From: Tyzzerella sp.
GTDB lineage: Bacteria > Bacillota > Clostridia > Lachnospirales > Lachnospiraceae
Length of the DNA stretch: 58,088 nucleotides
Direction: 5' to 3'
Assembly: GCA_017410145.1 (NCBI GenBank)
Contig: JAFQRJ010000001.1
Span: forward strand, 1 to 58,088
The position numbers and the translations under genes are program-made. The first letter of the stretch is position 1. Every line of letters starts with the position of its first letter. Shown here piece after piece: positions 16,190-40,136 of the stretch. The notes beneath the pieces were generated by a model, which saw nothing but the letters and a program-made list of their open reading frames with translations, was not told where the DNA came from and searched no databases.

Positions 16190-16578
16190 TACGGCCTGAC
16201 ATTTTAAAATTATGATTTACACCGTAGGAAGAAAAATCAAAATATTTATTTTACGGTGCCAACTTCTAGTTTGTTGCACTACACCGTATTGATATTTCAA
16301 AAAAGCAGAGTTCAATAACAATTTTACGGTACAAAAATTACGTTTCTTATTTTGCACCGTATTCATATAACAAAAAACTACAATGCAACTTGTTTTTTAC
16401 GGTGTGTAAACTAGAATTTATTTTTTATACCGTAAAAGAAAAAATGCAAAAAGTTTTGCTACGGTGTATTATTCAAAAACTGTTCTTTACACCGTAATTT
16501 AACCAAAACACAACCCAACTATTGACTTAGAGCCAAAAATATACGGTGTAGAAAGATAAATCTCCAATCCACACCGCA
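16190..16578. repeat. Phased dyad-repeat array 1 (six units)
   Basis: Each unit is an arm near TACGGTGY, a 21-bp unconserved spacer, and the inverted arm RCACCGTA. Units start at 16190, 16252, 16325, 16398, 16460 and 16542, and each is exactly 37 bp. Starts are 62, 73, 73, 62 and 82 bp apart (6, 7, 7, 6, 8 helical turns). The outer arms are the most degenerate (TACGGCCT at 16190, ACACCGCA at 16571) but keep the exact spacing. The array fills most of the 544-bp gap between the deacetylase and serA genes. No coding potential or promoter was seen inside it. Confidence 0.9.
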
Positions 16579-16599
16579 TAATTGATTACTTTATCAAGT

Positions 16600-17763
16600 T
16601 TATGCAATAACCCGAACTCTTAAAACTTCTTTAACTTTCTTCAGGTCTTCTACAATTACATCTGTGACTTCGTTTTCCACATCAATCATTGTATACGCAT
16701 ACGCATTTCTACTCTTATTTGTCATGTTTGCGATGTTGATGCCATCTTCTGCAAGAATGGTTGAAAACTGACCAATCATGTTTGGTACGTTACGGTGCAT
16801 AATGGTAATTCTGGTATATTCACCACGAAGTCCCATTTCACAGTTTGGATAGTTTACGGAATTGCGGATGTTACCATTTTCCAAAAATTCCATCACTTCT
16901 TTCACTGCCATCTTCGCACAGTTATCCTCTGATTCTTCTGTAGATGCTGCCAAGTGTGGTGTCACAATTACATTATCTTTGCCTGCCACAGTCGGATTAG
17001 CAAAGTCAGTCACATATTTTTTTACCTTTCCGGCAGCCATTGCTTCCAGTAAAGCCACTTCATCCACAAGCACATCTCTGGCATAGTTTAAAATGATGAC
17101 GCCATCCTTCATTAAGCTTAAAGCCTCTGCATTAATCATGCCTTTGGTAGATTCCATTGCCGGAACATGAATGGTAATGTAATCACATTCCTTGTAAATT
17201 TCCTCTGTGGTCTTTGCATGATAAATCTGACGAGACAATTTCCATGCCGCATCTACGGAAAGATATGGATCATATCCATATACTTCCATGCCTAATTTAA
17301 CTGCCGCATTTGCAACCAATACACCAATTGCTCCAAGACCGATAACACCAAGCTTTTTGCCTTCAAGCTCACAGCCTGCAAATGCTTTCTTTGCTTTTTC
17401 AGCGGATTTCGCAATATTGGAATCCTCTTTATTCGCCTTCACCCATTCAATACCGCCTACGATATCTCTGGAAGCAAGAAGAAGCCCTGCCAAAACCATC
17501 TCTTTTACACCATTGGCATTAGCACCAGGTGTGTTAAATACAACAATTCCTTCCTCTGCACAGCGATCTAACGGAATATTGTTCACGCCTGCTCCTGCCC
17601 TTGCGATTACTTTTAAGTTCTCGCCAAATTCAAGTTCATGCATCACAGCACTTCTTACAAGCACCGCATCTGCTTCATTCATATCCTCTACTGCAGCATA
17701 TGTATCACTAAACTGGTTTAAGCCGATACCTGCAATTGGATTTAAGCAATGATATTTATACAT
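16600..17763 (-). CDS. serA: D-3-phosphoglycerate dehydrogenase
   Basis: A 387-residue enzyme for the first step of serine synthesis, oxidising 3-phosphoglycerate to 3-phosphohydroxypyruvate with NAD. The NAD-binding motif is GVIGLGAIG (near residue 140). The catalytic trio is carried in ARAGAGVNN/ILNYARD (Arg), a downstream acidic residue, and TPHLAASTEES (His). A C-terminal ACT domain (about 315-387) suggests feedback control by serine. It overlaps the serC stop codon by one base (TAATG), so translation is coupled. It is the last gene of the leuB-ilvD-ilvB-serC-serA operon. Confidence 0.96.
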   Translation of the reverse strand: MYKYHCLNPIAGIGLNQFSDTYAAVEDMNEADAVLVRSAVMHELEFGENLKVIARAGAGVNNIPLDRCAEEGIVVFNTPGANANGVKEMVLAGLLLASRDIVGGIEWVKANKEDSNIAKSAEKAKKAFAGCELEGKKLGVIGLGAIGVLVANAAVKLGMEVYGYDPYLSVDAAWKLSRQIYHAKTTEEIYKECDYITIHVPAMESTKGMINAEALSLMKDGVIILNYARDVLVDEVALLEAMAAGKVKKYVTDFANPTVAGKDNVIVTPHLAASTEESEDNCAKMAVKEVMEFLENGNIRNSVNYPNCEMGLRGEYTRITIMHRNVPNMIGQFSTILAEDGINIANMTNKSRNAYAYTMIDVENEVTDVIVEDLKKVKEVLRVRVIA

Positions 17764-18845
17764 TAGAGATTCGCCTCCTCAAATTTCTTCATAAAAGCTA
17801 CAAGTGCTTCTACACCTTCCATTGGCATTGCGTTGTAGATACTTGCACGCATTCCACCCACACTTCTATGTCCTTTTAAGTTCTCAAAGCCTGCTTCTTT
17901 CGCTTCTTTCACAAACTTCGCATCCAAATCCGCATCCCCTGTCACAAACGGTACATTCATCAGCGAGCGGTCTTTTTTCTCAACTGTTCCTTTGAACAGC
18001 TTGCTTTCATCTAAGAAATCGTAAAGAATCTTTGCTTTCTTTTCATTTCTTTCTTTCATGGCTGCAAGTCCGCCCATTTCTTTAATCCATTTGAACACTT
18101 TACCACAAATGTAAATGCCATATGCAGGTGGTGTGTTATAAAGAGACTGTGCATCCGCATGAATCTTGTACTGTAACATTGTCGGTGTGCCAGGAAGCAC
18201 ATCCTCTGTAATCAAATCTTCGCGAATGATTACGATTACTACACCTGCAGGTCCGATATTCTTCTGAACTCCACCATAAATAATACCGTACTTGCTCACA
18301 TCAACCGGTTCTGATAGGAAGCAAGAAGAAACATCAGATACTAAAATCTTACCTTTTGTATTTGGAAGCTCTTTAAATTTTGTTCCGTAAATTGTGTTGT
18401 TTTCACATATGTAAACATAGTCTGCATCTTCTGAAATCGGCAAATCGGAGCAATCCGGAATATAAGAAAATGTCTTGTCTTCCGATGTTGCAATCTTGTT
18501 TGCTTTTCCGTATTTCTGTGCTTCCTGATATGCTTTCTTTGCCCATTGTCCTGTTACAATGTAATCTGCCACTTTGTTTTTCATCAAGTTCATTGGAATC
18601 ATGGCAAATTGTTGAGATGCACCACCTTGCAAAAACAGTACTTTATAGTTGTCCGGAATATTCATAAGTTCACGAAGGTCTGCCTCTGCTGTCTTAATAA
18701 TCTCGTCATATGCTTTCGAGCGATGGCTCATTTCCATAACCGACATTCCGGTTCCCTTGTAATCCATCATTTCTTCTGCTGCTTCTTTAAGCACGCATTC
18801 CGGTAAAACTGCCGGACCTGCTGAAAAGTTATACACTCTACTCAT
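17763..18845 (-). CDS. serC: Phosphoserine aminotransferase
   Basis: A 360-residue PLP enzyme that converts 3-phosphohydroxypyruvate and glutamate into O-phosphoserine. Family landmarks are YNFSAGPAVLP at the start, FLQGGASQQFAMIP, the PLP-lysine segment YGGVQKNIGPAGV, and the C-terminal GHRSVGGMRASIYNAMP that contacts substrate. Length is standard. It begins 3 bp after the ilvB stop and overlaps serA. No serB phosphatase gene is present in the window. Confidence 0.97.
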   Translation of the reverse strand: MSRVYNFSAGPAVLPECVLKEAAEEMMDYKGTGMSVMEMSHRSKAYDEIIKTAEADLRELMNIPDNYKVLFLQGGASQQFAMIPMNLMKNKVADYIVTGQWAKKAYQEAQKYGKANKIATSEDKTFSYIPDCSDLPISEDADYVYICENNTIYGTKFKELPNTKGKILVSDVSSCFLSEPVDVSKYGIIYGGVQKNIGPAGVVIVIIREDLITEDVLPGTPTMLQYKIHADAQSLYNTPPAYGIYICGKVFKWIKEMGGLAAMKERNEKKAKILYDFLDESKLFKGTVEKKDRSLMNVPFVTGDADLDAKFVKEAKEAGFENLKGHRSVGGMRASIYNAMPMEGVEALVAFMKKFEEANL

Positions 18846-18848
18846 TTT

Positions 18849-20528
18849 CTATTCCTCCTTTAAATCTTCTTCACTAAATGCTTCGCTAATTGCTGCTCCA
18901 GGTGCAACCATCGGCCATACCTTTTCATCACTGTCAATCTGGCAATCGATGACAACGGGTCTTCCAAGTGTCAGAGCTTCACTAAATGCTGCTTTAAATT
19001 CATCTAATGTGGTTGCTCTCATTCCCACAGCACCCATAGCCTCAGCTAATTTTACAAAGTCTACGGCATCGTTTAACACCGTTGCCGAATAACGCTGCCC
19101 ATAGAATAAAGTCTGCCATTGACGAACCATTCCAAGCACGTGGTTATTAATTACCACCTGAATAATCGGAATATTGTATCTTGCTGCTGTTGCAATCTCA
19201 TTCATGTTCATACGGAAGCAACCATCACCGGCTATATTGACTACCGTTTTTTCCGGAACACCCATTTTAGCTCCAAGGGATGCACCAAGTCCATATCCCA
19301 TGGTTCCAAGTCCGCCGGAAGTTAGAAGTGTCCTTGGCTTTGTATATTTATAGAACTGTGCTGCCCACATCTGGTGCTGTCCTACTTCTGTGGAAATGAC
19401 AGCGTCACCTTCGGTCTGCTTGTAAATTTCTTCAATCACTGCCGGACCTGTCAAAACGCCTTGATGATAGGTAAGCGGATATTTCTCTTTATAATCGTTG
19501 ATTGTTTGCTTCCATTCACTATGGTCTTGTTGTTCTAATTTTGCGTTGATTCGTTTAAGAACCTCATCCACATCACCTGTGATACTTGCATCTGTCATGA
19601 TATTTTTATCAATTTCTGCAGGGTCAATATCGATTTGAATAATCTTTGCCTTGCTTGCAAACTTGCTTGCATTTCCCGTTACACGGTCACTGAACCTTGC
19701 ACCGATTACCACGAGTAAATCACACTTGCTCACTCCAAAATTGGAAGGCTTTGTTCCATGCATTCCAAGCATGCCGGTATACAAATCATCTGTTCCCGGG
19801 AATGCACCTTTTCCCATTAAGGAATCGGTTACCGGTGCATCCATTTTATGCGCAAATTCTACCAAAGATTCGCTTGCTCCGGATAAAACAGCACCACCAC
19901 CAACAAAGATAAATGGTTTCTTCGCCTTTTTCATCATGGCAACTGCAGCATCAACCTCTGCTTCGGCAATCGGATTATTAATTACTTTTTCTGTATTGAT
20001 TACGGTTTTCTCATATTCACAAACATTTGCTGTCACATCCTTTGGAATGTCAATCAGTACCGGACCAGGACGTCCTGTTCTTGCGATTTCAAATGCTTTG
20101 CGAATCGTATCTGCAAGTTTACTTACATCTTTTACAATATAGTTATGCTTTGTAATTGGCATTGTAACACCGGCAATATCAATCTCTTGGAAGCTATCTT
20201 TTCCAAGCAAGGAAACGCCTACGTTACATGTAATCGCAACGATTGGAATGGAATCCATATATGCGGTTGCAATACCGGTTACCAGATTCGTTGCACCAGG
20301 ACCACTGGTTGCAAAACATACGCCGACCTTTCCGGTTGCTCTTGCGTATCCGTCAGCCGCATGAGATGCACCTTGCTCATGGGATGTTAAAATATGTGTA
20401 ATTTCATCACTGTGTTTATATAAAGCATCGTAAACATTTAAGATTGCTCCGCCCGGATAACCAAAGACAGTGTCAACGCCTTGTTCTTTCAAACATTCGA
20501 TTACGATTTCTGCTCCTGTTAATTGCAT
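18849..20528 (-). CDS. ilvB: Acetolactate synthase, large (catalytic) subunit
   Basis: A 559-residue thiamine-diphosphate enzyme that condenses two pyruvates to acetolactate, or pyruvate with 2-oxobutyrate. The catalytic glutamate is in SHEQGASHAADGYAR. The FAD/cofactor-binding middle domain follows, and the ThDP-Mg motif is GDGCFRMNMNEIATAARYNIPIIQVVINN. It starts 15 bp after ilvD. No ilvN regulatory subunit gene lies next to it, so the small subunit must be encoded elsewhere or the enzyme works alone. Confidence 0.96.
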   Translation of the reverse strand: MQLTGAEIVIECLKEQGVDTVFGYPGGAILNVYDALYKHSDEITHILTSHEQGASHAADGYARATGKVGVCFATSGPGATNLVTGIATAYMDSIPIVAITCNVGVSLLGKDSFQEIDIAGVTMPITKHNYIVKDVSKLADTIRKAFEIARTGRPGPVLIDIPKDVTANVCEYEKTVINTEKVINNPIAEAEVDAAVAMMKKAKKPFIFVGGGAVLSGASESLVEFAHKMDAPVTDSLMGKGAFPGTDDLYTGMLGMHGTKPSNFGVSKCDLLVVIGARFSDRVTGNASKFASKAKIIQIDIDPAEIDKNIMTDASITGDVDEVLKRINAKLEQQDHSEWKQTINDYKEKYPLTYHQGVLTGPAVIEEIYKQTEGDAVISTEVGQHQMWAAQFYKYTKPRTLLTSGGLGTMGYGLGASLGAKMGVPEKTVVNIAGDGCFRMNMNEIATAARYNIPIIQVVINNHVLGMVRQWQTLFYGQRYSATVLNDAVDFVKLAEAMGAVGMRATTLDEFKAAFSEALTLGRPVVIDCQIDSDEKVWPMVAPGAAISEAFSEEDLKEE

Positions 20529-20543
20529 AAAAAGTCTCCTTCT

Positions 20544-22211: not shown

Positions 22212-22242
22212 ATCTATTTCCTCCTTGCGTGTTAAGCAATTC

Positions 22243-23328: not shown

Positions 23329-23363
23329 ATCTATCTACCTCACGTATTAAAATATTTCTCTTT

Positions 23364-23392: not shown

Positions 23393-23445
23393 CCCTTTAA
23401 TGTGGAAAAGTGAAACTTTTTAGAGTGCACTCTGTTTTATTTTGC

Positions 23446-23477: not shown

Positions 23478-23483
23478 AAATTC

Positions 23484-27951: not shown

Positions 27952-28759
27952 TAAAAAATTATTGACCGGCCCATATCTATTCTGGGCAATTGCATTTATC
28001 ATCATCCCAATTATCATGATTTTCTTTTATGGACTCACGGATGCTGATAACAATTTTACGTTAATGAATCTGGCAGAAATTACTACGCCGGAAAACTTGA
28101 AAGCATTGGGCCTTTCTCTTCTGCTTTCTTTTATCAGTACAGTCATTTGTCTGATTCTCGCATATCCTCTAGCTGTTATTCTTTCGAATAAAAACGTGAA
28201 TCAGTCCAGTTTTATCGTTCTGATTTTTATTCTGCCAATGTGGATGAACTTTTTGCTTCGTACCTTGGCTTGGCAGACATTATTAGAGAAAAACGGTGTT
28301 ATCAATGCGGTGTTATCATTCCTACATTTACCGGAGCTTAACATCATTAATACACCATATGCAATTGTTTTGGGTATGGTTTATAACTTTTTGCCGTTTA
28401 TGGTTCTGCCAATTTATAATGTTTTGATTAAGATTGATAAGGATGTCATCAATGCAGCAAGAGATTTGGGGGCAAATGCGGCACAAGTATTTACGAAAGT
28501 CATTTTACCACTCTCCGTACCTGGTATAATTAGTGGTATCACTATGGTTTTCGTACCTGCACTGACCACCTTTGTTATTTCTGATATCTTGGGAGGAAGT
28601 AAAATATTACTGATTGGAAATGTAATTGAACAGGAATTTACGCAAAGCTACAATTGGCATGTTGGTTCTGGACTTTCACTTGTCCTTATGATTTTCATCA
28701 TATTCAGCATGGCTTTGGTAAGCAAATATGATAAAGATGGGGAGGGAACGGCATTTTGA
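27941..28759 (+). CDS. potB: Polyamine ABC transporter permease, first subunit
   Basis: A 272-residue membrane protein with about six transmembrane helices and the permease EAA loop ([26 protein letters not shown]) that docks onto PotA. A TTG at 27941 is the likely start: GAGGAGG lies 9 bp upstream. The alternative ATG at 27923 sits on top of that ribosome-binding site. The TTG start overlaps the potA stop by 11 bp, so translation is coupled. It pairs with the PotC-like half of the next gene. Confidence 0.9.
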
Positions 28760-30657
28760 TTAAATCAATGATACAAAAAATGTACCTGGGGCTGATTCTT
28801 CTTCTCCTTTATGCACCGATTGTGACATTAATCGTACTGTCTTTTAACAGTTCGAAAACACGATCTAAATGGGGTGGATTTTCGCTCAAATGGTATGCAA
28901 GTTTATTTGAAAATGCAGATATTATGAATGCATTATATACAACCTTGATTATTGCACTTTTATCTGCATTGATTTCTACTTTAATCGGAACTGCAGCCGC
29001 TATAGGCATGCAGGCGCTGAATAACAAATTCCGCACTACCATGATGGCAATCACAAACATACCGATGCTGAATGCTGACATTGTAACCGGTATTTCTCTC
29101 ATGCTTTTATTTATTGCATGCAGAGCATTTTACCCATCTTTTTCATTTGGCTTTGCAACGGTATTATTGGCGCACATTACTTTTAATATTCCGTATGTCA
29201 TACTAAGTGTCATACCAAAATTAAAGCAAACAAACAAGTATACTTATGAGGCTGCATTAGACCTGGGGGCATCTCCGATATACGCCTTTTTCAAGGTGGT
29301 ATTTCCGGATATTTTTCCTGGCGTTTGTTCCGGATTTTTACTTGCTTTTACCATGTCACTGGATGATTTTGTAATCACCCACTTTACAACAGGTGCCGGC
29401 GTGCATACGCTGTCAACAAAGATTTACAGTGAAGTGCGAAAAGGAATCAAACCTGAAATGTATGCCCTTTCCACTCTCCTGTTCGTAACGGTATTATTTC
29501 TACTTATTGTAGTAAATACTGCTCCGGAACAAAATACAAGCAATAAAAAACTAGTTCGAAAAGCACCAAGCAAGTTTAGTCGCATAGCCAATATCGCGTT
29601 TCGCCGTGTTGTGCCTGCTCTTTTGGTTCTTGTCATTGTGGGTGGCGGATTTTTCTACGGTGCACAAAACAGAGCCTCTGCCGGTGAACAAGTGGTTGTA
29701 TATAACTGGGGTGAATATATTGACCCTAAAGTACTGGATATGTTTGAAGAAGAAACCGGAATTAATGTGGTTTACGAAGAATTTGAAACCAATGAAAGCA
29801 TGTATCCGAAAGTACAAGCCGGTGCTGTTTCTTATGATTTGGTCTGTCCTTCAGATTACATGATTCAACGTATGTTAGAGAACAATCTGCTTGCTGAGAT
29901 TAATTTTGATAACATTCCAAATCTCAAATATATTGGCCAACAATATTTGGAACAGTCAAAAGCATTTGACCCTGAAAACAAATATAGCGTTCCTTATTGT
30001 TGGGGAACTGTGGGAATCCTTTATAATAAAACCATGGTGGACGAACCTATTGATAGTTGGTCCGTGTTATGGGACGAAAAATACGAGGACCAGATTCTGA
30101 TGCAAAACAGCGTGCGTGATGCCTTTGGGATTGCCTTGAAATACCTTGGATACTCGCTGAATTCAACGGACTTAGACGAACTGCAAGCTGCAAAAGAATT
30201 GCTCATGGAGCAAAAACCATTAGTACAAGCATATGTGGTAGATCAAGTTCGCGATAAAATGATTAGTAACGAAGCCGCCTTAGGCGTCATCTATTCCGGT
30301 GAAGCAATTTATACTCAATCAGAAAATCCTGATTTAGAGTATGTAATTCCAAAAGAAGGCTCTAATGTATGGATTGACTCGTGGGTTATTCCAAAGAATG
30401 CAAAGAACAAGGAAAATGCAGAAGCTTTTATCAACTTCTTATGTCGTCCGGAGATTGCAAAAATGAATTTTGATTATATCACATATTCAACTCCAAACAC
30501 AGCGGCTCGGGATTTGATTGAAGACGATGCAATCAGAGACAGCACAATTGCATTCCCTAACGACAGTGAATTATCACGTTGCGAAACCTATCAATACCTT
30601 GGCACAAAATTTGATGAGATTTATACAGAATTGTGGCGAGAAATTAAATCGAAATAA
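28756..30657 (+). CDS. potCD: Fused polyamine permease and substrate-binding protein (PotC-PotD)
   Basis: A 633-residue fusion. Residues 1-~255 are a PotC-type permease with six helices and the EAA loop at 165-186 (EAALDLGASPIYAFFKVVFP). A basic linker follows, then a further transmembrane helix at ~286-303. Residues 312-633 are a PotD-like binding protein (VVVYNWGEYIDP, then VPYCWGTVGILYN). The binding domain is thus tethered to the membrane by its own helix instead of being a lipoprotein. The fusion is continuous, with no frameshift. The likely start is TTG 28756, with GGAGGG upstream, overlapping the potB stop. Such fusions are known in some Firmicutes. Confidence 0.93.
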   Translation: MIKSMIQKMYLGLILLLLYAPIVTLIVLSFNSSKTRSKWGGFSLKWYASLFENADIMNALYTTLIIALLSALISTLIGTAAAIGMQALNNKFRTTMMAITNIPMLNADIVTGISLMLLFIACRAFYPSFSFGFATVLLAHITFNIPYVILSVIPKLKQTNKYTYEAALDLGASPIYAFFKVVFPDIFPGVCSGFLLAFTMSLDDFVITHFTTGAGVHTLSTKIYSEVRKGIKPEMYALSTLLFVTVLFLLIVVNTAPEQNTSNKKLVRKAPSKFSRIANIAFRRVVPALLVLVIVGGGFFYGAQNRASAGEQVVVYNWGEYIDPKVLDMFEEETGINVVYEEFETNESMYPKVQAGAVSYDLVCPSDYMIQRMLENNLLAEINFDNIPNLKYIGQQYLEQSKAFDPENKYSVPYCWGTVGILYNKTMVDEPIDSWSVLWDEKYEDQILMQNSVRDAFGIALKYLGYSLNSTDLDELQAAKELLMEQKPLVQAYVVDQVRDKMISNEAALGVIYSGEAIYTQSENPDLEYVIPKEGSNVWIDSWVIPKNAKNKENAEAFINFLCRPEIAKMNFDYITYSTPNTAARDLIEDDAIRDSTIAFPNDSELSRCETYQYLGTKFDEIYTELWREIKSK

Positions 30658-30692: not shown

Positions 30693-31072
30693 TACGGTGC
30701 AGGAAGTAGACTTTACTTTTTGCACCGTAAATAATGTGGTTTTAGTGCTTGATTTAATTATTATTTTTAAGAACTACGGTTTGTTAAGAAGATATTCACA
30801 ATTACACCGTAGCTTATTATTTTTCAGTTTGAATTTTACTGTATGATTTTCATAATTTAAATAGCACACCGTATTATTCATCATACAATGTTATGTTTTA
30901 CGGTGAAAAATATCAAATCAATTATCTTAGCCGTATCATATAACTTTTAACCACACAGATTAATAATCAATCTACGGTGTAATCATTACAATTTTAGATT
31001 CGCACCGTAATAGCCCATTGCCATACTCAACCAACTACGGTGCAACACATACAATTATACTCATACTCCGTA
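30693..31072. repeat. Phased dyad-repeat array 2 (six units)
   Basis: Units of TACGGTGY, 21 bp, inverted arm start at 30693, 30775, 30837, 30899, 30973 and 31036, each 37 bp. Spacing between starts is 82, 62, 62, 74 and 63 bp. Several arms have decayed (TACTGTAT at 30837, TAGCCGTA at 30928, ACTCCGTA at 31065), yet every one stays at the exact 21-bp distance from its partner. The array fills the gap between the pot operon and the pseudouridine synthase gene and stops about 12 bp before that gene's ribosome-binding site. No other feature is visible in the gap. Confidence 0.9.
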
Positions 31073-31095: not shown

Positions 31096-31980
31096 ATGAA
31101 GCGCATTTTCAATTATACTATTCCAACTGAATATGACGGACGTACTCTTTTATCCTTTTTAAAAGAAAAACATTTCTCTGCTCCTGTCATCACACATTTG
31201 AAACGCACAGAAAATGGTATCCTGTTAAATGGTGTATGGGGCAGAGTTCGTGATATTTTACACACAAATGACATTCTTACAATTAATTTAATTGAATCAG
31301 AAGTTTCCGAAAACATTGTACCTACTAATCTCCCATTAGACATTGTATATGAGGATGAAGATATTTTAATTATCAACAAGAGGTCCAACACTCCAATTCA
31401 TCCTTCTCAAGGGAACTATGATAATACACTTGCAAATGCCGTTGCATATTATTTTCGGGAAAAAGGAGAAGCTTTTACCTATCGTTGCATCAACAGACTT
31501 GATCGTGATACAACGGGCCTTCTCATATTAGCAAAGCATATGCACAGCGCTTCTATTCTATCAAACATGGTGCAAAAACGAGAAATTCATCGAGAATACT
31601 TGGCTATAGCTACAGGCAAGGTCCCACAAGAGGGAACTATTGTTGCCCCGATTGCTCGAGTAGACGGCTCGACTATTGAACGTTGTGTTAATGAAGAAAA
31701 CGGTGAATATGCTTGTACTCATTACAAAACTTTAATGAACAAAAATGGGTACTCTCTTGTTTCATTGAAACTTGAAACCGGAAGAACACATCAGATACGT
31801 GTTCACATGAAGCATATCGAACACCCCTTGCCGGGAGATTTTTTATATAATCCAGATTATACTGTTATTAACCGACAGGCACTTCATTCACATAAGTTAA
31901 GTTTTAAGCATCCTATAACTGGAGAAATGATGGAAATTATTGCTGAATTGCCAGATGATATGAAAAAGATTATAGAGTAA
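31096..31980 (+). CDS. RluA-family pseudouridine synthase
   Basis: A 294-residue enzyme that converts uridine to pseudouridine in rRNA or tRNA. It has an N-terminal S4-like RNA-binding region (about 12-75) and the catalytic motif RLDRDTTGLLILAK with Asp136 as nucleophile. The downstream segments LKLETGRTHQIRVHMKHI and HSHKLSFKHP are typical of the family. ATG 31096 is preceded by ACAGGAGGCCCT; the frame is open to 31018 but those codons lie in repeat array 2. RluA, RluC and RluD paralogues cannot be told apart here, so no symbol is given. Confidence 0.92.
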   Translation: MKRIFNYTIPTEYDGRTLLSFLKEKHFSAPVITHLKRTENGILLNGVWGRVRDILHTNDILTINLIESEVSENIVPTNLPLDIVYEDEDILIINKRSNTPIHPSQGNYDNTLANAVAYYFREKGEAFTYRCINRLDRDTTGLLILAKHMHSASILSNMVQKREIHREYLAIATGKVPQEGTIVAPIARVDGSTIERCVNEENGEYACTHYKTLMNKNGYSLVSLKLETGRTHQIRVHMKHIEHPLPGDFLYNPDYTVINRQALHSHKLSFKHPITGEMMEIIAELPDDMKKIIE

Positions 31981-32336
31981 ATTCTTTTAACATTTGTTCT
32001 ACTATTTTCATATCTAAAGGTTTATGAAGTGTTTCAAATGTAACTAGAAGATTTTTGCCTATGTATATCCCGTTTTTTGCATAATCTTCTAGTTTTTTTA
32101 TTGCTGTCTCGCTGTACGTTGGATCATCGTTCCGAAACCAGTTTGCTATTCTTTGCTGATATATATTTTCCTTTCTTTTGCAAACTTTCTTGTTTGTGAT
32201 AATATTGCACTGAACCATTTGACTTTGAGAGTACCAAACTACCTTCTGGTGCCTTTTTTAGTGATTTTGCTACTCTTTTTTCTAAAACTTCTAGCTGTTT
32301 TCTCTTTTTTTGTAACGTTTCTTTTATTTTTTTCAT
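31970..32336 (-). pseudogene. Decayed gene: two ends of one protein joined out of frame
   Basis: A good ribosome-binding site (AGGAGG) and ATG at 32336 open a basic 70-residue frame (MKKIKETLQKKRKQLEVLEK, KKAPEGSLVLSKSNGSVQYY) that stops at 32124. A second frame overlapping it and ending at 31970 supplies an unrelated-looking C-terminal part (WFRNDDPTYSETAIKKLEDY, NGIYIGKNLLVTFET). From memory, these resemble the opening and closing segments of one uncharacterised clostridial protein family of roughly 250-300 residues. The middle would then be deleted with a frame shift. Exact family and any nuclease-like function are uncertain. It lies between repeat arrays 2 and 3 and converges on the pseudouridine synthase. 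Confidence 0.6.
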
Positions 32337-32374: not shown

Positions 32375-32691
32375 TACGGTTTGAAAAGCTTATTTTCTTA
32401 TCTGCACCGTACTAATTTTAGATTTTAAATTTGATTTTTGGGAATTTACGGTGTGATGTGTTTCTTTGTTCTTTTACACCGTATATATTGAATTAATATA
32501 AATATGAAATTATAAGATTTACGGTGCAAACTATCATTTTCTATTTATACACCGTATGAAAATAAATTTGATTGAGAATTGTTACGGTGTACATCTAGAA
32601 TCTTTAAACATACACTGTAATTTTCAGGAAAGCCCTGAATTAAACCATACATTTTACGGTGTGGCAATTCTTATTCTCTCACCACACCGCA
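32375..32691. repeat. Phased dyad-repeat array 3 (five units)
   Basis: Units start at 32375, 32447, 32520, 32583 and 32655. All have a 21-bp spacer between arms, and starts are 72, 73, 63 and 72 bp apart. Arms are well preserved (TACGGTGT at three, TACGGTGC at one, TACGGTTT at one). The array lies between the start of the decayed gene at 32336 and the end of the uridine kinase-like gene at 32729, and nothing else is recognisable there. Confidence 0.9.
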
Positions 32692-32728
32692 AAAAACATG
32701 TTTCATCGCAAAGCATCAACTTCAACTG

Positions 32729-34396
32729 TTATATCTGAAAGCATCCGCCACCAATAAACTCTTTTAACAATGAATTTGCCGGCACATGCTCGCTTCCAAT
32801 GCCCACGAAGTAATCCAAGAATTTTAACAAGCGTTTTGCTTCGATATATTCCTCGCAATCTTTTCCAATACCAAACAAAACCGGCTCAGCATACTGTTTC
32901 AAAACTGCCAATTCATAAATAAGTGCAGAATTAAACATTACATCTGCCTCTTCCTGATATGGGAATATATTTTCTTCTTCTCCTCTTCTAACGGAAGGCC
33001 ACATTGCAATCGTTTCTTTTGCATTGGTCCCACGCGTTCTTGCATCACGCACCATTCGTCTCAAAAGTCTTCCATCCGTAGTTGGAATTCGATTGTGCTC
33101 ATCAATATTCAACTGGGTCAACGCACTGATATAAATCTTAAACTTGTTCTCCTTTGGCAACTGATAGGTAAGTGCATCATTCAAACAGTGAATGCCTTCA
33201 ATTACAAGAACATCATGTTCCCCAAGTTTTTTAGTTTTTCCATTATATTCTCGTTTTCCAGTTTTAAAATTAAAGTTTGGAAGTTCCACTTCTTTTCCTG
33301 CAAGAAGATCAGTCATATCCTTGTTAAACTGTCTTACATCAATGGCCTCCAAGCACTCGTAATTATAATTGCCATCCTCATCTCTTGGCGTGTCTTCTCT
33401 ATTCACAAAATAATTATCAACTGCAATTGGATGAGGGATGATTCCATGTGCACGAAGTTGTATGGATAAACGGTGCGAAAAAGTAGTTTTTCCAGAGGAT
33501 GAAGGGCCTGCAATCAAGATAAATTTCACATTCTCTCGATCCACTATGGTTCGCGCAATATCACCAATCTTCTTTTCCTGCAGGGCTTCCTGTACCAATA
33601 TGGTTTCCTGTAACCTCCCTTGGGTAACTGCTTCATTCAAATCAGCCACTGTCTGAATGCCAAGCATATCTCCCCACTTAGATGACTCATCCAATACCTG
33701 GAACAGCTTCTGTCGCGGCTTAAAAGGCGGTACAACCGTCGGATTTTTACTTTCCGGCATCTGTATCACAAATCCATCACCATACAGATATAGTTCAAAA
33801 TACGGCAAATAAGAAGCATCCGGAACCATATATCCATAGTAATAGTCTTCAAACTCATTCATACTATAGATATTTACCTTAGAAACCCGGCGGTATTCAA
33901 ATAATCGTTCCTTGTCATGCATGCCATGCTGTTTAAACAAAGCAACCGCTTCATCTGTATGAACGCTCCGTTTCTCGATTGGCATTTTTGCCTCTACCAT
34001 TTCCAGCATTCTTCTCTTTACCGCTGCAAGGAATTCCTCATTGATTACTACTCCTCCAGATACGGTGCAGTAATATCCCTTATCCACGGAAAAATCAATC
34101 CGCACCTTGCATGATTTATCATGATTACAAATATCGTGAATTGCCTTCACTAACATCAAACACAAACTTCGCTTGTAGGTTTGATTTCCTACGGAGTCTC
34201 CGGTTGTAATAAATTTCAGTTCACAATCCCGCTTTAATGTTTTCTTCAACTCGAAAAGTCGGTTTTTCTCACACCCAAGAACAATTGTATGCTCGTACTG
34301 GCTTTGAAACTCTTTGGCTATGGCCTCAAAAGTTGTTCCTTCATCATATGTGTGAATCATATCGTTTACTTTGACCTGATATTGTCTCTTTTCCAT
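32729..34396 (-). CDS. Uridine kinase-like nucleoside kinase with N-terminal TGS/ThrRS-like region
   Basis: A 555-residue protein. Its N-terminal ~260 residues resemble the TGS and editing-domain region of threonyl-tRNA synthetases. From ~285 there is a P-loop kinase of the uridine kinase/phosphoribulokinase family, with Walker A GPSSSGKTT at 297-305 and a substrate segment around VDNYFVNREDTPRD. This architecture is common in Clostridia and is usually labelled uridine kinase or nucleoside kinase. The true substrate is not established. ATG 34396 has ATAGGAGGAGACGGT upstream, 20 bp after the Nif3 gene, so the longer frame to 34471 is rejected. Confidence 0.87.
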   Translation of the reverse strand: MEKRQYQVKVNDMIHTYDEGTTFEAIAKEFQSQYEHTIVLGCEKNRLFELKKTLKRDCELKFITTGDSVGNQTYKRSLCLMLVKAIHDICNHDKSCKVRIDFSVDKGYYCTVSGGVVINEEFLAAVKRRMLEMVEAKMPIEKRSVHTDEAVALFKQHGMHDKERLFEYRRVSKVNIYSMNEFEDYYYGYMVPDASYLPYFELYLYGDGFVIQMPESKNPTVVPPFKPRQKLFQVLDESSKWGDMLGIQTVADLNEAVTQGRLQETILVQEALQEKKIGDIARTIVDRENVKFILIAGPSSSGKTTFSHRLSIQLRAHGIIPHPIAVDNYFVNREDTPRDEDGNYNYECLEAIDVRQFNKDMTDLLAGKEVELPNFNFKTGKREYNGKTKKLGEHDVLVIEGIHCLNDALTYQLPKENKFKIYISALTQLNIDEHNRIPTTDGRLLRRMVRDARTRGTNAKETIAMWPSVRRGEEENIFPYQEEADVMFNSALIYELAVLKQYAEPVLFGIGKDCEEYIEAKRLLKFLDYFVGIGSEHVPANSLLKEFIGGGCFQI

Positions 34397-34416
34397 ACCG
34401 TCTCCTCCTATTGGAT

Positions 34417-35193
34417 TTAAATTACATGAAATGGATTCGTTTTTTTCGCTGTCACAACCCCAACGCCGCAAATCTTTTCTTTCATAAATTCTGCAACATC
34501 TTCGATAAAAATATGCTCCAAACCATAGTGTCCTGCATCGATGATAAATAATCCTCTCTCCACTGCATCAAGGCCCTCATGATGGTCGATATCCCCTGTT
34601 ACGAGCACTTGTGCGCCCTCAGCAAGAGCAAATTCTGACATATGTTTTCCGGATCCCGGCGAAATTGCTACACGTTGTATCTTCTCATTCAGATTTCCAA
34701 ACACCTTTACCGTATCTAAATGAAATCTCTCTTTCACCAATTCGCAGCACTCCTGCAATGACATCTCTGATTTCAACATCCCAACTCTGCCAATTCCTTC
34801 TCGGGTTTCATCATCTGTCACTTCCAGTACCTTCCTGTCATCCAGCCCTAAAATCGCACCTGAAAGTTCCGCCATACCAAGAACATCATAATTCGTATGC
34901 ATGGCATAATAGGAAATATCGTGTTGTAATAATTTTACAACACGACTACCTATATAATCCTCATCTGTAATTGTTTTAAGTGGTGAAAATAGCAATGGGT
35001 GATGCGTAATCAACATGTCTGCTTTGCAGGAAATAGCATCCTCAATCACTTCATTTGTCGCATCTAATGCTACATAGATGGAATTCACTTCCTTATCCAT
35101 GCGACCAACCAACAATCCCACATTATCCCACTCAAGGGCTGCATGCTTTGGATATGTAGTTTCAATCACCTTCATAATATCTCTGCAAAGCAT
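34417..35193 (-). CDS. Nif3-like dinuclear metal-centre protein
   Basis: A 258-residue member of the NIF3/YbgI family, ring-shaped proteins holding two metal ions. Metal-ligand segments are visible as ITHHPLLF (His pair), MHTNYD and a C-terminal DAGHYGLEH with its downstream glutamate. The cellular reaction is not firmly known. The start at 35193 (MLCRDIMKVIE) has GGAGGCAATCGAGT in front and overlaps the trmK coding region by 32 bp; ATG 35175 is a weaker alternative. It follows trmK as in many Firmicutes. Confidence 0.88.
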   Translation of the reverse strand: MLCRDIMKVIETTYPKHAALEWDNVGLLVGRMDKEVNSIYVALDATNEVIEDAISCKADMLITHHPLLFSPLKTITDEDYIGSRVVKLLQHDISYYAMHTNYDVLGMAELSGAILGLDDRKVLEVTDDETREGIGRVGMLKSEMSLQECCELVKERFHLDTVKVFGNLNEKIQRVAISPGSGKHMSEFALAEGAQVLVTGDIDHHEGLDAVERGLFIIDAGHYGLEHIFIEDVAEFMKEKICGVGVVTAKKTNPFHVI

Positions 35194-35863
35194 ACTCGAT
35201 TGCCTCCAATTCTTCTTGTATTTCTTTTTTGCGAATTTCGATATGTTCACCAAAATTCGTTTCCAAATTTGATAAAATTGTTGTTTTTTTCTTTTTCTCT
35301 TTATTTAAAAATGCCTTTAAAACAAGATTCTTTTTTTCTAACAACAATTTTCCGTAACATAGTTCTATCTTATGATATGTTGAAGGATAACCGTTGATTA
35401 CACGGAACATGGGATAGAATTTCCCTTCATCAAACACCATATCCTCTTCCACAATAACATATGCATGATTACACAAATATTCTCGTACCTTTTGTACTTC
35501 AGACTGTGGCTGAAGCACGAACTCTTTCAAATTTCGAAAAACTTCTTCTCCATCTTCCAAAATCTTAATCGTGAGCGCACCTCCCATGCCTGCAATCACA
35601 ACACACTCACACTCGCCTACTTCTAAAGCACGAACTCCGTCTGATAATCTTGTCTCAATTCTAGAATTCATTCTGTAGGCTGCAATATGTTCTTTTGCTC
35701 GAAGTAACGGCCCTTTATTTACATCAAGAGCATATGCTTTTGGAGATTTCTCTGCCTCAATCAAATAGATTGGAATATAACCGTGGTCTGTCCCAACATC
35801 AGCAACAACCAGACCATCACTAATCAAATCTGCAACAGCCTGCAATCTTCTTGATAGTTCCAT
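35162..35863 (-). CDS. trmK: tRNA (adenine-22-N1)-methyltransferase
   Basis: A 233-residue SAM-dependent methyltransferase of the TrmK family, which methylates A22 in bacterial tRNAs. The SAM-binding motif is VADVGTDHGYIPIYL near residue 20, the acidic SAM-contact is in YALDVNKGPL, and the catalytic region is VIAGMGGALTIKIL. A C-terminal coiled-coil (about 165-230, rich in Lys and Glu) is typical. It lies directly downstream of rpoD and overlaps the Nif3 gene, a conserved order in Gram-positive bacteria. Confidence 0.93.
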   Translation of the reverse strand: MELSRRLQAVADLISDGLVVADVGTDHGYIPIYLIEAEKSPKAYALDVNKGPLLRAKEHIAAYRMNSRIETRLSDGVRALEVGECECVVIAGMGGALTIKILEDGEEVFRNLKEFVLQPQSEVQKVREYLCNHAYVIVEEDMVFDEGKFYPMFRVINGYPSTYHKIELCYGKLLLEKKNLVLKAFLNKEKKKKTTILSNLETNFGEHIEIRKKEIQEELEAIEYALQRYYEGD

Positions 35864-35870
35864 AATACAC

Positions 35871-37001
35871 CTAGTCTAAATAGTCACGAAGTTTACGGCT
35901 TCTGCTTGGATGACGAAGTTTTCTTAACGCTTTCGCTTCAATCTGACGAATACGTTCACGTGTTACGTCAAATTCTTTTCCAACTTCTTCCAAAGTTCTA
36001 GCTCGTCCATCATTCATACCGAAGCGTAAACGAAGCACTTTTTGTTCTCTCTCTGTCAATGTATCCAGCACCTCATTCAATTGTTCTTTTAACAATGTCT
36101 GAGCTGCAGCTTCCGCAGGCACCGGCACATTATCGTCTTGAATGAAATCACCCAAATGACTATCTTCTTCCTCACCAATTGGTGTCTCCAGGGAAACCGG
36201 TTCCTGTGAAATCTTTAAGATTTCACGCACACGGTCCACCGGCATATCCATCTCTTTTGCAATTTCTTCCGGCATAGGCTCACGTCCTAATTCCTGTAAC
36301 AATTGTCTGGAAACGCGAATTAATTTATTGATCGTTTCCACCATGTGAACCGGAATACGAATGGTTCTCGCCTGGTCGGCAATAGCTCTGGTAATGGCCT
36401 GACGAATCCACCATGTGGCATAGGTACTGAATTTAAAACCTTTTTGGTAGTCAAATTTTTCAACTGCTTTGATCAGTCCAAGGTTACCCTCTTGAATCAA
36501 ATCAAGGAATAACATTCCACGTCCCACATAACGTTTTGCGATGCTGACAACAAGACGAAGATTTGCTTCGGCAAGTCTCTTTTTGGCATCTTCATCACCT
36601 TCTGACATACGTTTAGCAAGCTCAATCTCTTCATCTGCACTCAGAAGAGGAACCTTACCAATCTCTTTCAAATACATGCGGACAGGGTCTTCAATACTGA
36701 TGCCATCCGGAACAGACAAGTCGATTTTTTCCATATCGACCTCCACCTCATCGTCTTCAGCCACCAGCATGAGTTCCATATCATCCGGCAAATCATCTTC
36801 TTCCACATTTGCCGGAATTCGAAGTATATCAATTCCTTGCGTTTCCAAATATTCAAAAATTTTATCCATCTGTTCTGCTTCCAGCTCTACGTCTGAGAAA
36901 ACATCATTGATTTCCTGAATTTCAAGAATATTTTTTTTCTTTTTCCCAAGAGTAACCAGGTTTTTCAATTTTTCCTCAAATTTAATAGCTTGTTCTTCCA
37001 T
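35871..37001 (-). CDS. rpoD: Primary RNA polymerase sigma factor (sigma-70/sigma-A)
   Basis: A 376-residue housekeeping sigma factor. Region 1.2 is [17 protein letters not shown], region 2 contains [36 protein letters not shown], and region 4.2 is [30 protein letters not shown]. The N-terminal region 1.1 is short and acidic, as in Firmicutes. It lies 37 bp after dnaG and 8 bp before trmK in the macromolecular synthesis cluster. Confidence 0.98.
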
Positions 37002-37038
37002 GTAGTAATGTCCTCCATAACTTGTTTATATTTTATCC

Positions 37039-38814
37039 TTAATCAATAGAAATATGCAATTTCTGTAAATCCTGCAACGCTCTTTTCGCTTCCATTAGTT
37101 TTTGTAGGCCCATAATATCCGTCGGGTCCAGATTTCTTGTAGCCTCTTCCACGCTATGTGTCTTTACACGAATAATTGTTTCTTTCAGTGCCTTCTCCTG
37201 CTCTGCCTTTGTCTCTAATTTCTGAATCCTTGTATGAAATAAAGAAGCTACTTCTCTGTGCTCCTCCTCATCCGTAAAGTGATTCATAACCTTTGCCGGA
37301 TTTAGTTCGCCGGATTCATACTGTTCATATAAAAGATTTGCCACTGTTTGAAACAGTTCCTTTGTGAAATCATTTGGCGTAATATACTTTTTAATCTGTG
37401 AAAATATTTTATTATCTTCAATAATCCAAGTCAGCAATATCTTTTGTGGTTGTAAATTCGTATCTTCTTTCACTCGTTCTTTTGCTATTGAAGATTTTGG
37501 TTTTGCAACCGGAGAAGCTTGTCCTGCTTGAATTGCCATTTTAGAAACTTTTTTACGGAATTCTTCAATGGAAATTCGATACTTTTGTGCGATTGCTTCT
37601 ATATAATTATTTCTCTCCAGATTATCTTCAAATTCCGTTAGACGTTTTGCAACCGCATTGTAGAAATCAGTCTTTCCTTCCGGCGAGTCCATGTCATAAT
37701 CCTTTTCCATAACCTCAACCATAAATACAAACCAATTCTTTGCCTGATTAATTCTCTCCTCGTAAGCCTCAACGCCCATATTTTTAATAAATTCATCCGG
37801 GTCCTTATATGGTTCCATGGAAATTACTTTGATCGTCATTCCTGCTTCCCTTAAGATAGGGATTGCACGAAGCGCTGCCTTTATGCCTGCCCCATCACTG
37901 TCAAAGGTCAAGTACACCTTGTCTACATAACGTTTGATTAAAGAAGCATGTCCCGTCGTAAACGCAGTTCCAAGGGATGCAACCGCATTTGTAAACCCTG
38001 CCTGATGAAGTGCAATGACATCCATATATCCTTCGCATAACAGGAAATAATTCTTCCTTGATGTTCTGGCCTTGTTTAATCCGTACAGATTTCGACTTTT
38101 ATCAAATAATTCCGTTTCCGGTGAGTTCAAGTATTTCGGCTCTCCCTCTCCCAATACACGTCCTCCAAAACCAATTACCCGACTATTTGCATCCATAATC
38201 GGAAACATAACTCTATTCCAGAAGTAATCGTAGGCTCCCTTCTTTTCATTCACCCTAATAAGTCCTGCTTTTAATAGCAGTTCATCCGAATATCCTTGTA
38301 ATTTTAAGTATTTATACAAATCATCACTATAAATATTAGAGTATCCCAAACCAAACCCCGTAATGGTTTCTTCGCTTAGTCCTCGGTTCGTTAAATATGT
38401 ATGCGCTGTCTTACCTTTTTCTGTTTTCAACTGCGCATAAAAATATTTTGCTGCCGTTTTATTAATTTCAAGCAAAGTAGCCTTTAGGTTGGCCTTTTCT
38501 TTCGCCTCATTGGAATATTCAATTTCCGGAAGCTCTACACCAGCCCGTTCCGCCAAAAATTTGAGTGCCTCCGTAAATGTGTAATTTTCATATTCCATTA
38601 TAAAAGTAAAGACATTTCCGCCTGCCCCGCATCCAAAGCAGTAATACATTTGCTTCGAACGACTGACAGAAAAAGATGGAGACTTCTCATTATGAAATGG
38701 GCATAAACCAAAATAGGAGCTTCCCTTTTTTTGCAATTTCACATATCCGGAAATTACATCAACAATATCATTTTTCAAACGTATTTCTTCTACTAAATCT
38801 TCCGAATAATACAT
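37039..38814 (-). CDS. dnaG: DNA primase
   Basis: A 591-residue primase that makes RNA primers at replication forks. The N-terminal zinc-binding domain has Cys38, His41, Cys59 and Cys62 (LCPFHNEK and YYCFGCGAGG). The TOPRIM core follows with LLCEGYMDVIAL and the metal-binding DSDGAG. A C-terminal helicase-interacting domain closes the protein. ATG 38814 is chosen because AAAGGAGGTAGAC stands just before it; the longer frame to 38886 runs into the end of dgt. It lies between dgt and rpoD. Confidence 0.97.
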   Translation of the reverse strand: MYYSEDLVEEIRLKNDIVDVISGYVKLQKKGSSYFGLCPFHNEKSPSFSVSRSKQMYYCFGCGAGGNVFTFIMEYENYTFTEALKFLAERAGVELPEIEYSNEAKEKANLKATLLEINKTAAKYFYAQLKTEKGKTAHTYLTNRGLSEETITGFGLGYSNIYSDDLYKYLKLQGYSDELLLKAGLIRVNEKKGAYDYFWNRVMFPIMDANSRVIGFGGRVLGEGEPKYLNSPETELFDKSRNLYGLNKARTSRKNYFLLCEGYMDVIALHQAGFTNAVASLGTAFTTGHASLIKRYVDKVYLTFDSDGAGIKAALRAIPILREAGMTIKVISMEPYKDPDEFIKNMGVEAYEERINQAKNWFVFMVEVMEKDYDMDSPEGKTDFYNAVAKRLTEFEDNLERNNYIEAIAQKYRISIEEFRKKVSKMAIQAGQASPVAKPKSSIAKERVKEDTNLQPQKILLTWIIEDNKIFSQIKKYITPNDFTKELFQTVANLLYEQYESGELNPAKVMNHFTDEEEHREVASLFHTRIQKLETKAEQEKALKETIIRVKTHSVEEATRNLDPTDIMGLQKLMEAKRALQDLQKLHISID

Positions 38815-38873
38815 GTCTACCTCCTTTTTTATCCTTACTTTATATAATATTCGACAAACATCCTTGATTTCCT

Positions 38874-39881
38874 TTAAAATTTCCAAGATTCCGGAATAAA
38901 AATTTCCTGAAATACTTTTACTGCATAATTGTCCGTCATTCCGGCTATATAATCACAGATTACCTGCTCTTTGCTATCGCCGTAAAACTCCATTCTACGT
39001 AAATATTCATTCGGAAGTTTATCCAATTGTTCATAATAATAAAAATATAGTTTTCTAACCATTTCAATTGCCTTACTCTCCTCCTGTTTGGCAACTGAGT
39101 TTTTGTAGACGTTCTCAAACATGAACTTACGAAGTCCTTGCATGGCTTCATTTACTTCTTCCGACATCTGCACATTTGGTTTATCCATGCTATTAATAAT
39201 GACATCATGTGTAATTGTGTTCAAACGTTCCTTTGTAGAATTCCCCAAAATCATTCTATACTTTGGCGGAATGTCTGCCTCGGACAGAATCCCCCCGCGA
39301 ATGGCATCGTCGATATCGTGATTCACATAGGCAATCTTATCAGACAACCGGACCACCTGACCTTCTAGCGTCATCGGTTCACTTGCCGTCTGATGGGTTA
39401 ATATACCATCTAAAACTTCCCTTGTCAGATTCAGCCCCTGCCCATCCTTTTCTAAACATTCTACAACACGAACACTCTGCTCCGCATGTTTAAAGCCCTG
39501 CGGACACAATTCATTCAGCGCTCTCTCACCCGCATGACCGAATGGTGTGTGACCCAAATCATGCCCCAGACTAATTGCCTCTACCAAATCCTCATTCAAT
39601 CGAAGTGCTTTGGCAATAGTACGTGCATTTTGTGACACCTCTAGAGTGTGTGTAAGTCTAGTCCGGTAATGGTCTCCTTTAGGAAGCAAAAACACTTGTG
39701 TCTTTTGCTTTAAACGGCGAAACGACTTACTATGCAATATACGGTCTCTATCTCTTTGAAATACCGGCCTGATATCGCATTCTGTTTCCTCACGTTTTCT
39801 TCCAAGTGATTCTTTGCTCTTTGTTGCATATGGACTCAAATAATCCATTTCGCGCAATTCTAATTGTTCTCGGATTGTCAT
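38874..39881 (-). CDS. dgt: Deoxyguanosinetriphosphate triphosphohydrolase-like HD protein
   Basis: A 335-residue HD-superfamily phosphohydrolase that splits dNTPs into nucleoside and triphosphate. The metal ligands are in RLTHTLEVSQ, LGHDLGHTPFGHAGE and VNHDIDDAI. ATG 39881 is preferred because AAGGAGGTATACC precedes it; the frame continues to 39914 into repeat array 4. The ribosome-binding site is 9 bp from the nearest array half-site (39899-39906). It is the first gene of the dgt-dnaG-rpoD-trmK-nif3 cluster. Confidence 0.93.
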   Translation of the reverse strand: MTIREQLELREMDYLSPYATKSKESLGRKREETECDIRPVFQRDRDRILHSKSFRRLKQKTQVFLLPKGDHYRTRLTHTLEVSQNARTIAKALRLNEDLVEAISLGHDLGHTPFGHAGERALNELCPQGFKHAEQSVRVVECLEKDGQGLNLTREVLDGILTHQTASEPMTLEGQVVRLSDKIAYVNHDIDDAIRGGILSEADIPPKYRMILGNSTKERLNTITHDVIINSMDKPNVQMSEEVNEAMQGLRKFMFENVYKNSVAKQEESKAIEMVRKLYFYYYEQLDKLPNEYLRRMEFYGDSKEQVICDYIAGMTDNYAVKVFQEIFIPESWKF

Positions 39882-39898
39882 GGTATACCTCCTTATTT

Positions 39899-40136
39899 GC
39901 ACCGTATTTTTCAAGGGAAACTAATCGAATTATTTTGATTTTACGGTGTGTAAATGTATTGTAGAACAGACACACCGTACTTTACAACAACTACACCGTA
40001 TTTTTCAAAGAAAATTTATGAAAATTTTTAAGTTTTACGGTGTTTGATTGTATTATACCACACTTACACCGTAACAATCAGACTATAATTCTTGTTTATT
40101 ACGGTGTTTAACTATAAAGCATGTTATCGCACCGTA
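39899..40136. repeat. Phased dyad-repeat array 4 (three full units plus lone half-sites)
   Basis: Full units start at 39942 and 40036 (22-bp spacer, 38 bp each) and at 40100 (21-bp spacer). All six arms are exact matches to TACGGTGY. A lone inverted arm at 39899-39906 lies just upstream of dgt, and an extra inverted arm is at 39993-40000. Unit starts are 94 and 64 bp apart (9 and 6 turns). The array fills the gap between dgt and tRNA-Leu. The dgt promoter must lie in or beyond it; no clear one was found. Confidence 0.88.

Follow-up and report, generated by a model that had tools for sequence, protein, structure and literature searches.

Helically phased arrays of gapped dyads in a Tyzzerella genome: candidate operator-like platforms for a DNA-bending protein at gene ends

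Gapped dyads in the window and across genomes

The stretch analysed here, hereafter the window, comprises 58,088 nt of contig JAFQRJ010000001.1 from a Tyzzerella sp. metagenome-assembled genome (MAG; designated G000, 1.89 Mb, 68% complete). Four of its intergenic gaps, which adjoin a phosphoglycerate-dehydrogenase-like gene, a potCD-like gene and rluD, a uridine-kinase-like gene, and a dGTPase gene and tRNA-Leu, hold 20 gapped dyads of the form TACGGTGY-N21/22-RCACCGTA, each termed a unit in what follows. The arms are exactly TACGGTGY in 28 of 40 instances, and, of the spacers, 18 measure 21 bp, those of the units at 39942 and 40036 being 22 bp long. Unit-to-unit steps are 62-64, 72-74, 82 or 94 bp. 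The arrays, which are given without strand, and their accompanying elements are:

Array 1, 16190..16578: units 16190-16226, 16252-16288, 16325-16361, 16398-16434, 16460-16496 and 16542-16578; steps 62, 73, 73, 62 and 82 bp; 3' of the phosphoglycerate-dehydrogenase-like gene 16600-17763 (- strand)
Gene-proximal unit of array 1, 16542..16578, - strand: also folds as a terminator hairpin, then TATTTTTGG on the - strand
Array 2, 30693..31072: units 30693-30729, 30775-30811, 30837-30873, 30899-30935, 30973-31009 and 31036-31072; steps 82, 62, 62, 74 and 63 bp; between the potCD-like gene (stop 30657) and rluD (likely ATG 31096)
Array 3, 32375..32691: units 32375-32411, 32447-32483, 32520-32556, 32583-32619 and 32655-32691; steps 72, 73, 63 and 72 bp; 3' of the uridine-kinase-like gene 32729-34471 (- strand)
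Array 4, 39942..40136: units 39942-39979 (N22), 40036-40073 (N22) and 40100-40136; steps 94 and 64 bp; between the dGTPase gene 38874-39914 (- strand) and tRNA-Leu 40172-40258 (- strand)
Lone half-site GCACCGTA, 39899..39906 (also given as 39900-39906), - strand: 35 bp before the first unit of array 4
Lone half-site CACCGTA within array 4, 39994..40000, - strand: 35 bp from the unit at 40036

A sequence-only reading of the window had claimed 20 units in four gaps, 28 exact arms and the spacer and step lengths given above; our recount returned the same numbers at the same places. Its fourth array, taken to span 39899-40136, does contain units, but consists of three full units and two lone half-sites. 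Across the 94-bp step of this array, the half-site/unit pattern recurs in full, as if duplicated in tandem.

Exact arm pairs at N20-22 number nine in the window and none in 100 dinucleotide shuffles. With up to two mismatches allowed, there are 21 pairs of the 7-mer at N22-24 (mean 0.12, maximum 3, in 200 simulated windows), of which one, at 13909, falls outside the arrays; sorted by distance, 18 such pairs occur at N23 and two at N24, and every other distance from 5 to 60 has at most one. Window units at 13909, 16791 and 26920 were judged chance and left out.

The 21-bp spacing and the 10-bp steps, whose disappearance beyond the window had been named as the refuting outcome, persist genome-wide: G000 contains 36 exact units against none for the reversed control, and the same step classes recur in arrays beyond the window. 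With three mismatches allowed at N21, there are 77 matches against 30 for the control, and reading around the matches brings the total found to at least 19 arrays and at least 77 units. The congener Tyzzerella sp. RGIG1712 (G009; 84% complete MAG, goat cecum) yielded nine arrays and 21 units. The density is ~1 array per 100 kb in G000 and ~1 per 230 kb in G009.

The distribution of the arrays is very narrow. The exact pattern is present in three of 61 genomes (G000 and relatives) and in four of 250 genomes of the family (a draw without G008 and G009; G002, G003, G005, G006 and G008 denote genomes of relatives), of which only G000 has more than one match and the other three have one each; the reversed control gave one match in nine of the 250. 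A three-arm pattern found 10 stretches in the GTDB species collection: five come from three ruminant-gut Lachnospiraceae/Tyzzerella MAGs, and five are single stretches from unrelated taxa, taken as chance. Viral contigs searched for the array pattern gave 0 matches. Elsewhere there are single matches at chance level and one unit-bearing contig in each of two bins, RGIG4687 (G008) and RGIG7268, which we treat as uncertain. The sole units of these bins, in L043 (G008:C12) and L024 (individual arrays and loci are designated by L and a number), lie on small single contigs of 6.7 and 10.7 kb, which may have been misbinned from a relative of G000.

No analogous arrays with other arms were seen in the 64-100 kb sampled from each of eight other members of the genus, a weak negative because, at the densities found here, such samples can miss arrays; the search method recovers TACGGTG/N23 from 20-kb pieces of the window. 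Its best other-arm signal, ACTACTT/N38, occurring three times in G006, was rejected as a repeated longer sequence in one stretch. The proposed mapping of the arrays against replication origin and terminus, a rough one that takes synteny for granted, gave no sign of clustering: orthologues of seven array-flanking genes spread across 0.30-1.87 Mb of a 2.88-Mb contig of G005, with dnaA on another contig.

Helical phase and half-site architecture

The phase of the unit centres was assessed over 68 steps; the 28 arrays that supply them are 17 of G000's 19, nine from G009 and two from the uncertain bins. The fitted slope corresponds to a pitch of 10.387 bp per turn with a residual standard deviation of 0.64 bp, and 67 of the 68 steps lie no more than 1.5 bp off a multiple of 10.4 bp, the spacing in whole helical turns that a phased operator array of a DNA-bending protein requires. 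The steps span six (26 steps), seven (31), eight (7), nine (2), 11 (1) or 12 (1) turns, and thus form classes near 62, 73, 83, 94, 114 and 125 bp, between which the distribution is almost empty. R is 0.914 in G000 (52 steps) and 0.982 in G009 alone (12 steps), and the observed R was reached by none of 20,000 jittered sets. Collapsing repeated steps within arrays, so as to limit the effect of tandem duplication, left 43 steps with R = 0.91 and a best period of 10.5 bp, again unmatched in 20,000 jittered sets. The claim that the units stand in phase, for which a spacing test at 10.4 bp had been proposed, is thus borne out. The accompanying statement that the two sites of a unit, 29 bp apart, occupy nearly the same face of the DNA is loose (~2.8 turns); it is the unit centres that lie on one face.

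The decayed array L124 has mutated arms and has kept steps of 62, 73 and 83 bp. Two arrays found later, L129 and L130, stand outside the phase statistics; their steps by coordinates are, respectively, 63, 62, 52, 63 and 63 bp, and 72 bp, the 52-bp step being equivalent to five turns and lying beside a decayed unit. In L043, the unit at 2273 and the step of 165 bp were not counted as part of the array and were left out of the statistics, and the coding matches L127, L128, L131 and L132 were dropped.

The half-site logo reads wwT-TACGGTG-Y-R-A-A-A (consensus wwTTACGGTGYRAAA). Strong half-sites are nearly confined to arrays: exact TTACGGTGYRA occurs 37 times in the 1.89 Mb of G000, with 30 copies in the first-found arrays, three in two arrays found via them, and four elsewhere. 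At the variable mirrored positions (0 and 8-12), the 74 units with a 21-bp spacer have no significant Watson-Crick excess over the shuffled expectation: pairing at position 8 is 0.51 against 0.47 (p = 0.215), and at position 0, which gives the lowest p-value among the variable positions, 0.59 against 0.52 (p = 0.06). Two of 33 flank or arm positions have p < 0.05 uncorrected (-7 for Watson-Crick pairs; -4 with G-U pairs allowed), which is about chance level. With no significant pairing excess, the units do not show the palindromic stem with compensatory changes that characterizes a repetitive extragenic palindrome (REP), and a hairpin of RNA or single-stranded DNA was rejected as a general explanation, since pairing between the mirrored variable positions stays at chance level. 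The lack of detectable arm covariation fits selection on each half-site separately, as for protein contact on duplex DNA; together with the conservation of the arms, it supports the earlier claim of a binding site on duplex DNA, and the dyad unit looks like a double-stranded protein site rather than a hairpin.

The A/T content about the dyad is likewise phased (82 units; z = 7.2 at 10.0 bp and 6.2 at 10.4 bp). Outside the arms, it peaks at the dyad (95%) and then about every 10 bp, at about -7, -21 and -29. A minor groove turned towards a bound protein at these points would be expected to give such a pattern, which suggests bent DNA.

Gene ends, terminators and turnover

Gene positions were taken from mechanical open reading frame (ORF) calls and ARAGORN. 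By these, G000 and G009 together have 28 arrays, of which 26 follow the 3' end of one or more genes or tRNAs; the other two are L037b, which stands between divergent genes, and L130, whose placement is unclear. Over 24 chosen gene ends, the median distance from the stop codon to the first unit is ~32 nt, one of these ends (ispD) being 255 nt away with a tRNA in between. The neighbours are mixed housekeeping genes, namely, luxS, atpC, gltX, a peptide-chain release factor gene, clpB, relA, pdp, recO and those for fumarase, a potCD-like protein and PFOR; beside L035 lies a gene that we take to be mraZ. Five arrays (L026, L027, L031, L032 and L041b) are located between convergent genes. The 3' placement by genes and tRNAs, the reuse of the gene-nearest unit as a terminator and the lone half-sites were all absent from the sequence-only reading. 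In the window, the genes beside arrays 2 and 4 include:

28756..30657, + strand: potCD-like ABC permease/substrate-binding fusion, upstream of array 2
31096..31980, + strand: RluA/RluD-family pseudouridine synthase, downstream of array 2; the ORF call starts at 31018, and the ATG with a ribosome-binding site is at 31096
40172..40258, - strand: tRNA-Leu(aag), from whose 3' end array 4 is separated by ~36 bp

Window positions 31970-32336 (- strand), in the interval from rluD to the uridine-kinase-like gene, carry two short ORFs of 70 and 82 aa that overlap and may be a single frame-broken gene; the 70-aa ORF is without a Pfam match, and the corresponding gap in G009 is only ~90 bp.

Of the 28 gene-nearest units, read in the direction of the gene, 12 carry a T-tract, compared with 14 of the 146 other unit readings (p = 7 × 10−5). 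These gene-proximal units as a group also form the more stable folds, with a median of -13.8 compared with -8.9 for the other readings. Among 22 array-bearing gene ends, five have a canonical terminator before the array, nine have a terminator-like first unit, and eight have neither; the arms form the hairpin in eight of the nine terminator-like units, the exception being gltX. Orthologous ends that lack arrays in relatives have a terminator in 15 of 26 cases, leaving aside L100, which has a unit, and L120 and L123, whose matches are partial or distant. All these terminator counts are lower bounds, as the finder misses evident hairpins (after luxS in G002 and gltX in G000). A short-loop hairpin followed by a U-tract is a feature mainly of gene-proximal units, and only of some of those, rather than of every unit.

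Units occur at four shared places in G000 and G009: potCD (six and one units, respectively), rluD/udk (five and one), gltX (five and one) and dGTPase/tRNA-Leu (three and four). The first unit of array 2 matches the lone unit at the corresponding place in G009, and the counterpart of array 4 is L126, which sits beside the same tRNA-Leu/tRNA-Pro pair; at this place the steps are 94 and 64 bp in G000 and 62, 83 and 62 bp in G009, all whole turns, so that the spacing differs between the two species and the phase is kept. At seven of eight compared gene ends (prfA, luxS, relA, clpB, pgdh, atpC and pdp), G009 has no array where G000 has one, its atpC match covering only part of the gene.

Among 4591 between-array spacer pairs (99.9th percentile 11.5), the best score, 14.0, belongs to the potCD unit common to G000 and G009, and a pair from the unrelated G009 loci L039 and L126, both A/T-rich, scores 13.5. 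Apart from these two pairs, the spacers of different loci are unrelated, and recent copying between loci was rejected as an explanation. Within arrays, four of 162 spacer pairs exceed the same percentile. Whole units have recently been duplicated in tandem at L029 3982-4162 and L026 3984-4093, and these copies are of use for dating how the arrays grew. It appears that an array begins with a seed unit and gains further units by duplication while keeping arms and phase.

Elsewhere in the window, the gene for an anaerobic ribonucleotide reductase (NRDD, PF13597) is split at 46727-49794 (- strand) into an N-part (48628-49794) and a C-part (46727-47647). A GIY-YIG endonuclease ORF (47799-48467) lies between them on the same strand, and the arrangement looks like an intron/homing-endonuclease insertion; no Rfam family matched at E <= 1 at this locus.

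Interpretation and known systems

On balance, we lean towards the arrays being operator-like platforms for a dimeric DNA-bending protein, with a probable boundary or topological role. Each 37-bp unit, with its two inverted half-sites around a flexible, A/T-phased centre, would probably be bound by a DNA-bending dimer; because neighbouring units are whole turns apart, the bound dimers would face the same way and could touch, and their contacts could build a wrapped or stacked compact nucleoprotein complex at gene ends. Arrays would grow by tandem duplication, those duplicates that keep phase and arms surviving. As the arrays lie in the intervals that separate transcription units and mostly follow stop codons or tRNAs, their likeliest job would be that of a boundary or topological element, with the gene-nearest unit often reused as an intrinsic terminator. 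A bolder version, which is conceivable but which we would sooner doubt than accept, is that of a lineage-specific chromatin device: a dedicated, sequence-specific predicted protein would wrap or stack on the in-phase dyads at the 3' ends of housekeeping units and tRNAs, forming nucleosome-like boundaries that insulate adjacent genes from one another and act in place of, or in support of, terminators, with selection keeping phase and bendability and leaving the spacers free.

A number of observations weigh against the preferred interpretation. The scans made found no binding protein: no DNA-binding family recurs beside the arrays among the 60 proteins scanned, only some of which are array neighbours, and no proteome-wide search was made. 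With regard to an extra IHF-like protein, no additional full-length gene of the HU/IHF type accompanies the arrays; in G009 the second match is a 26-aa piece at the edge of a contig, a longer second match exists in G008, and no HU match of any kind was found in the incomplete G000 bin. A 3' position is common to most intergenic DNA and is, therefore, weak evidence by itself, and a boundary role is not uniform, in that some arrays lie inside apparent operons, L037b (and L024, from an uncertain bin) lies between divergent genes, and eight of the 22 array-bearing ends lack both a canonical terminator and a terminator-like first unit. Moreover, the steps are partly inherited via tandem duplication, hence incompletely independent, and the half-site consensus, with wwT ahead of the core and RAAA behind it, may itself account for part of the A/T signal. 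Finally, very few genomes have arrays, and the high turnover, with seven of eight compared gene ends array-free in G009, is odd for an essential chromosomal function.

If the arrays were instead the operators of a conventional regulon, a transcription factor would act through them on downstream genes. It is true that arrays within tandem gene pairs also precede the second gene, that one ends 23 bp before the likely rluD start and another lies before the dGTPase gene, and that L037b and L024 separate divergent genes. However, the five arrays between convergent genes, where no promoter is expected, argue against promoter control, the scanned neighbours share no evident function, and the arrays turn over between close species; we regard this explanation as unlikely. 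An RNA-level element, in which the units would be multi-hairpin intrinsic terminators or elements of the 3' untranslated region with the arms as stems, draws on the terminator-like first units at nine of 22 ends, eight of them through the arms, and on the greater stability of proximal units. It is nevertheless distinctly improbable, given that the arms are without significant covariation, that T-tracts are found in so few of the other unit readings, and that the helical phase of the unit centres has no evident role in RNA.

We judge it very improbable that the arrays are mobile or selfish short repeats (REP/REPIN-like, or like miniature inverted-repeat transposable elements) spread by a transposase, and a recent mobile repeat seems unlikely. 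The gain and loss of arrays between species, their intergenic position, the tandem growth of some and the L039/L126 spacer pair, though both members are A/T-rich, would suit such an origin; against it, the other between-locus spacers are unrelated, the best-scoring pair being the shared potCD unit, and the arms lack detectable covariation. Furthermore, no Y1_Tnp frame with the length of a REP-associated tyrosine transposase (RAYT) was found in G000 or G009, which have, respectively, one of 80 aa with a stop inside the match and one of 153 aa, both bins being incomplete, so that a missed gene is possible. RAYT-like lengths (256-268 aa, judged by length only) occur in the array-less G002, G003 and G005; mobilization of a REP/REPIN by a RAYT was rejected, as frames of this length were not seen to track the arrays in these incomplete bins. 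The inverted ends of an insertion sequence were likewise rejected, since the four strong half-sites located outside arrays include no pair at a distance of 0.8-3 kb. Least probable of all, to the point of being scarcely credible, are DNA uptake signals with inverted pairs serving as terminators, as in Haemophilus and Neisseria: some pairs are indeed reused as terminators, but the half-sites are too few and too clustered, 33 of the 37 exact strong ones being in arrays, and this candidate was rejected. No uptake signal is known to us in which the pairs are helically phased. What does speak for it is that the GC core followed by phased A/T tracts (core-n-RAAA-N6-W) resembles the extended uptake signal sequence (USS) of Haemophilus, as given in PMC1852404.

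Under the preferred reading, that of platforms for a DNA-bending dimer, the arrays would point to a protein acting at gene ends, not promoters. The 68 inter-unit distances, falling in discrete classes, amount to a natural spacing experiment, which makes in-phase protein-protein contact on bacterial DNA directly testable.

Arrays of this geometry were not found among the literature matches listed, in which subscription papers are thinly covered. Several known systems share individual features with them. Bacillus PurR, BirA and NikR bind as dimers to inverted half-sites separated by a long unconserved spacer, at single operators of a few promoters. The units described here have the same two inverted half-sites and long unconserved spacer, and dimer binding is predicted, but they differ in spacer length and form multi-unit phased arrays 3' of housekeeping genes. 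Helically phased wrapping of DNA over multiple sites is known from iteron and centromere arrays (ParR-parC) and from the Lrp family, at one locus per replicon or at specific promoters; the present arrays, for which wrapping is predicted, are phased in the same manner, whereas there are at least 19 of them across one genome.

The TAACTGA heptamer repeats of Beggiatoaceae are, according to PMC4679880, direct repeats mostly just upstream of start codons and proposed to act on RNA. They resemble the present arrays in being lineage-patchy intergenic heptamer arrays whose binder is likewise to be found, and differ in that the text available describes no helical phasing for them (PMC4679880). The USS of Haemophilus and the DNA uptake sequences of Neisseria also include inverted pairs of a short motif that form terminators, as at nine of the 22 ends here, and the Haemophilus signal shares the GC core with phased A/T tracts; however, uptake signals generally number at least 1,000 per genome (PMC1852404), whereas the 37 half-sites of G000 represent a far lower copy number and are concentrated in phased arrays.

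The closest counterparts in layout are the bacterial interspersed mosaic elements (BIMEs) of E. coli, which PMC2817692 describes as extragenic motif arrays of alternating orientation and regular spacing, bound by IHF, gyrase and Pol I, and linked to termination and chromosome organisation. The motifs of the present arrays are also extragenic and regularly spaced, and they alternate in orientation. In contrast, the REPs of BIMEs are palindromes with compensatory changes and an associated RAYT, whereas the arrays here consist of plain half-sites without detectable covariation, their spacers are not conserved, and no gene of RAYT length was found to track them. Alike in layout and different in build, BIMEs would seem to offer the most useful functional analogy.

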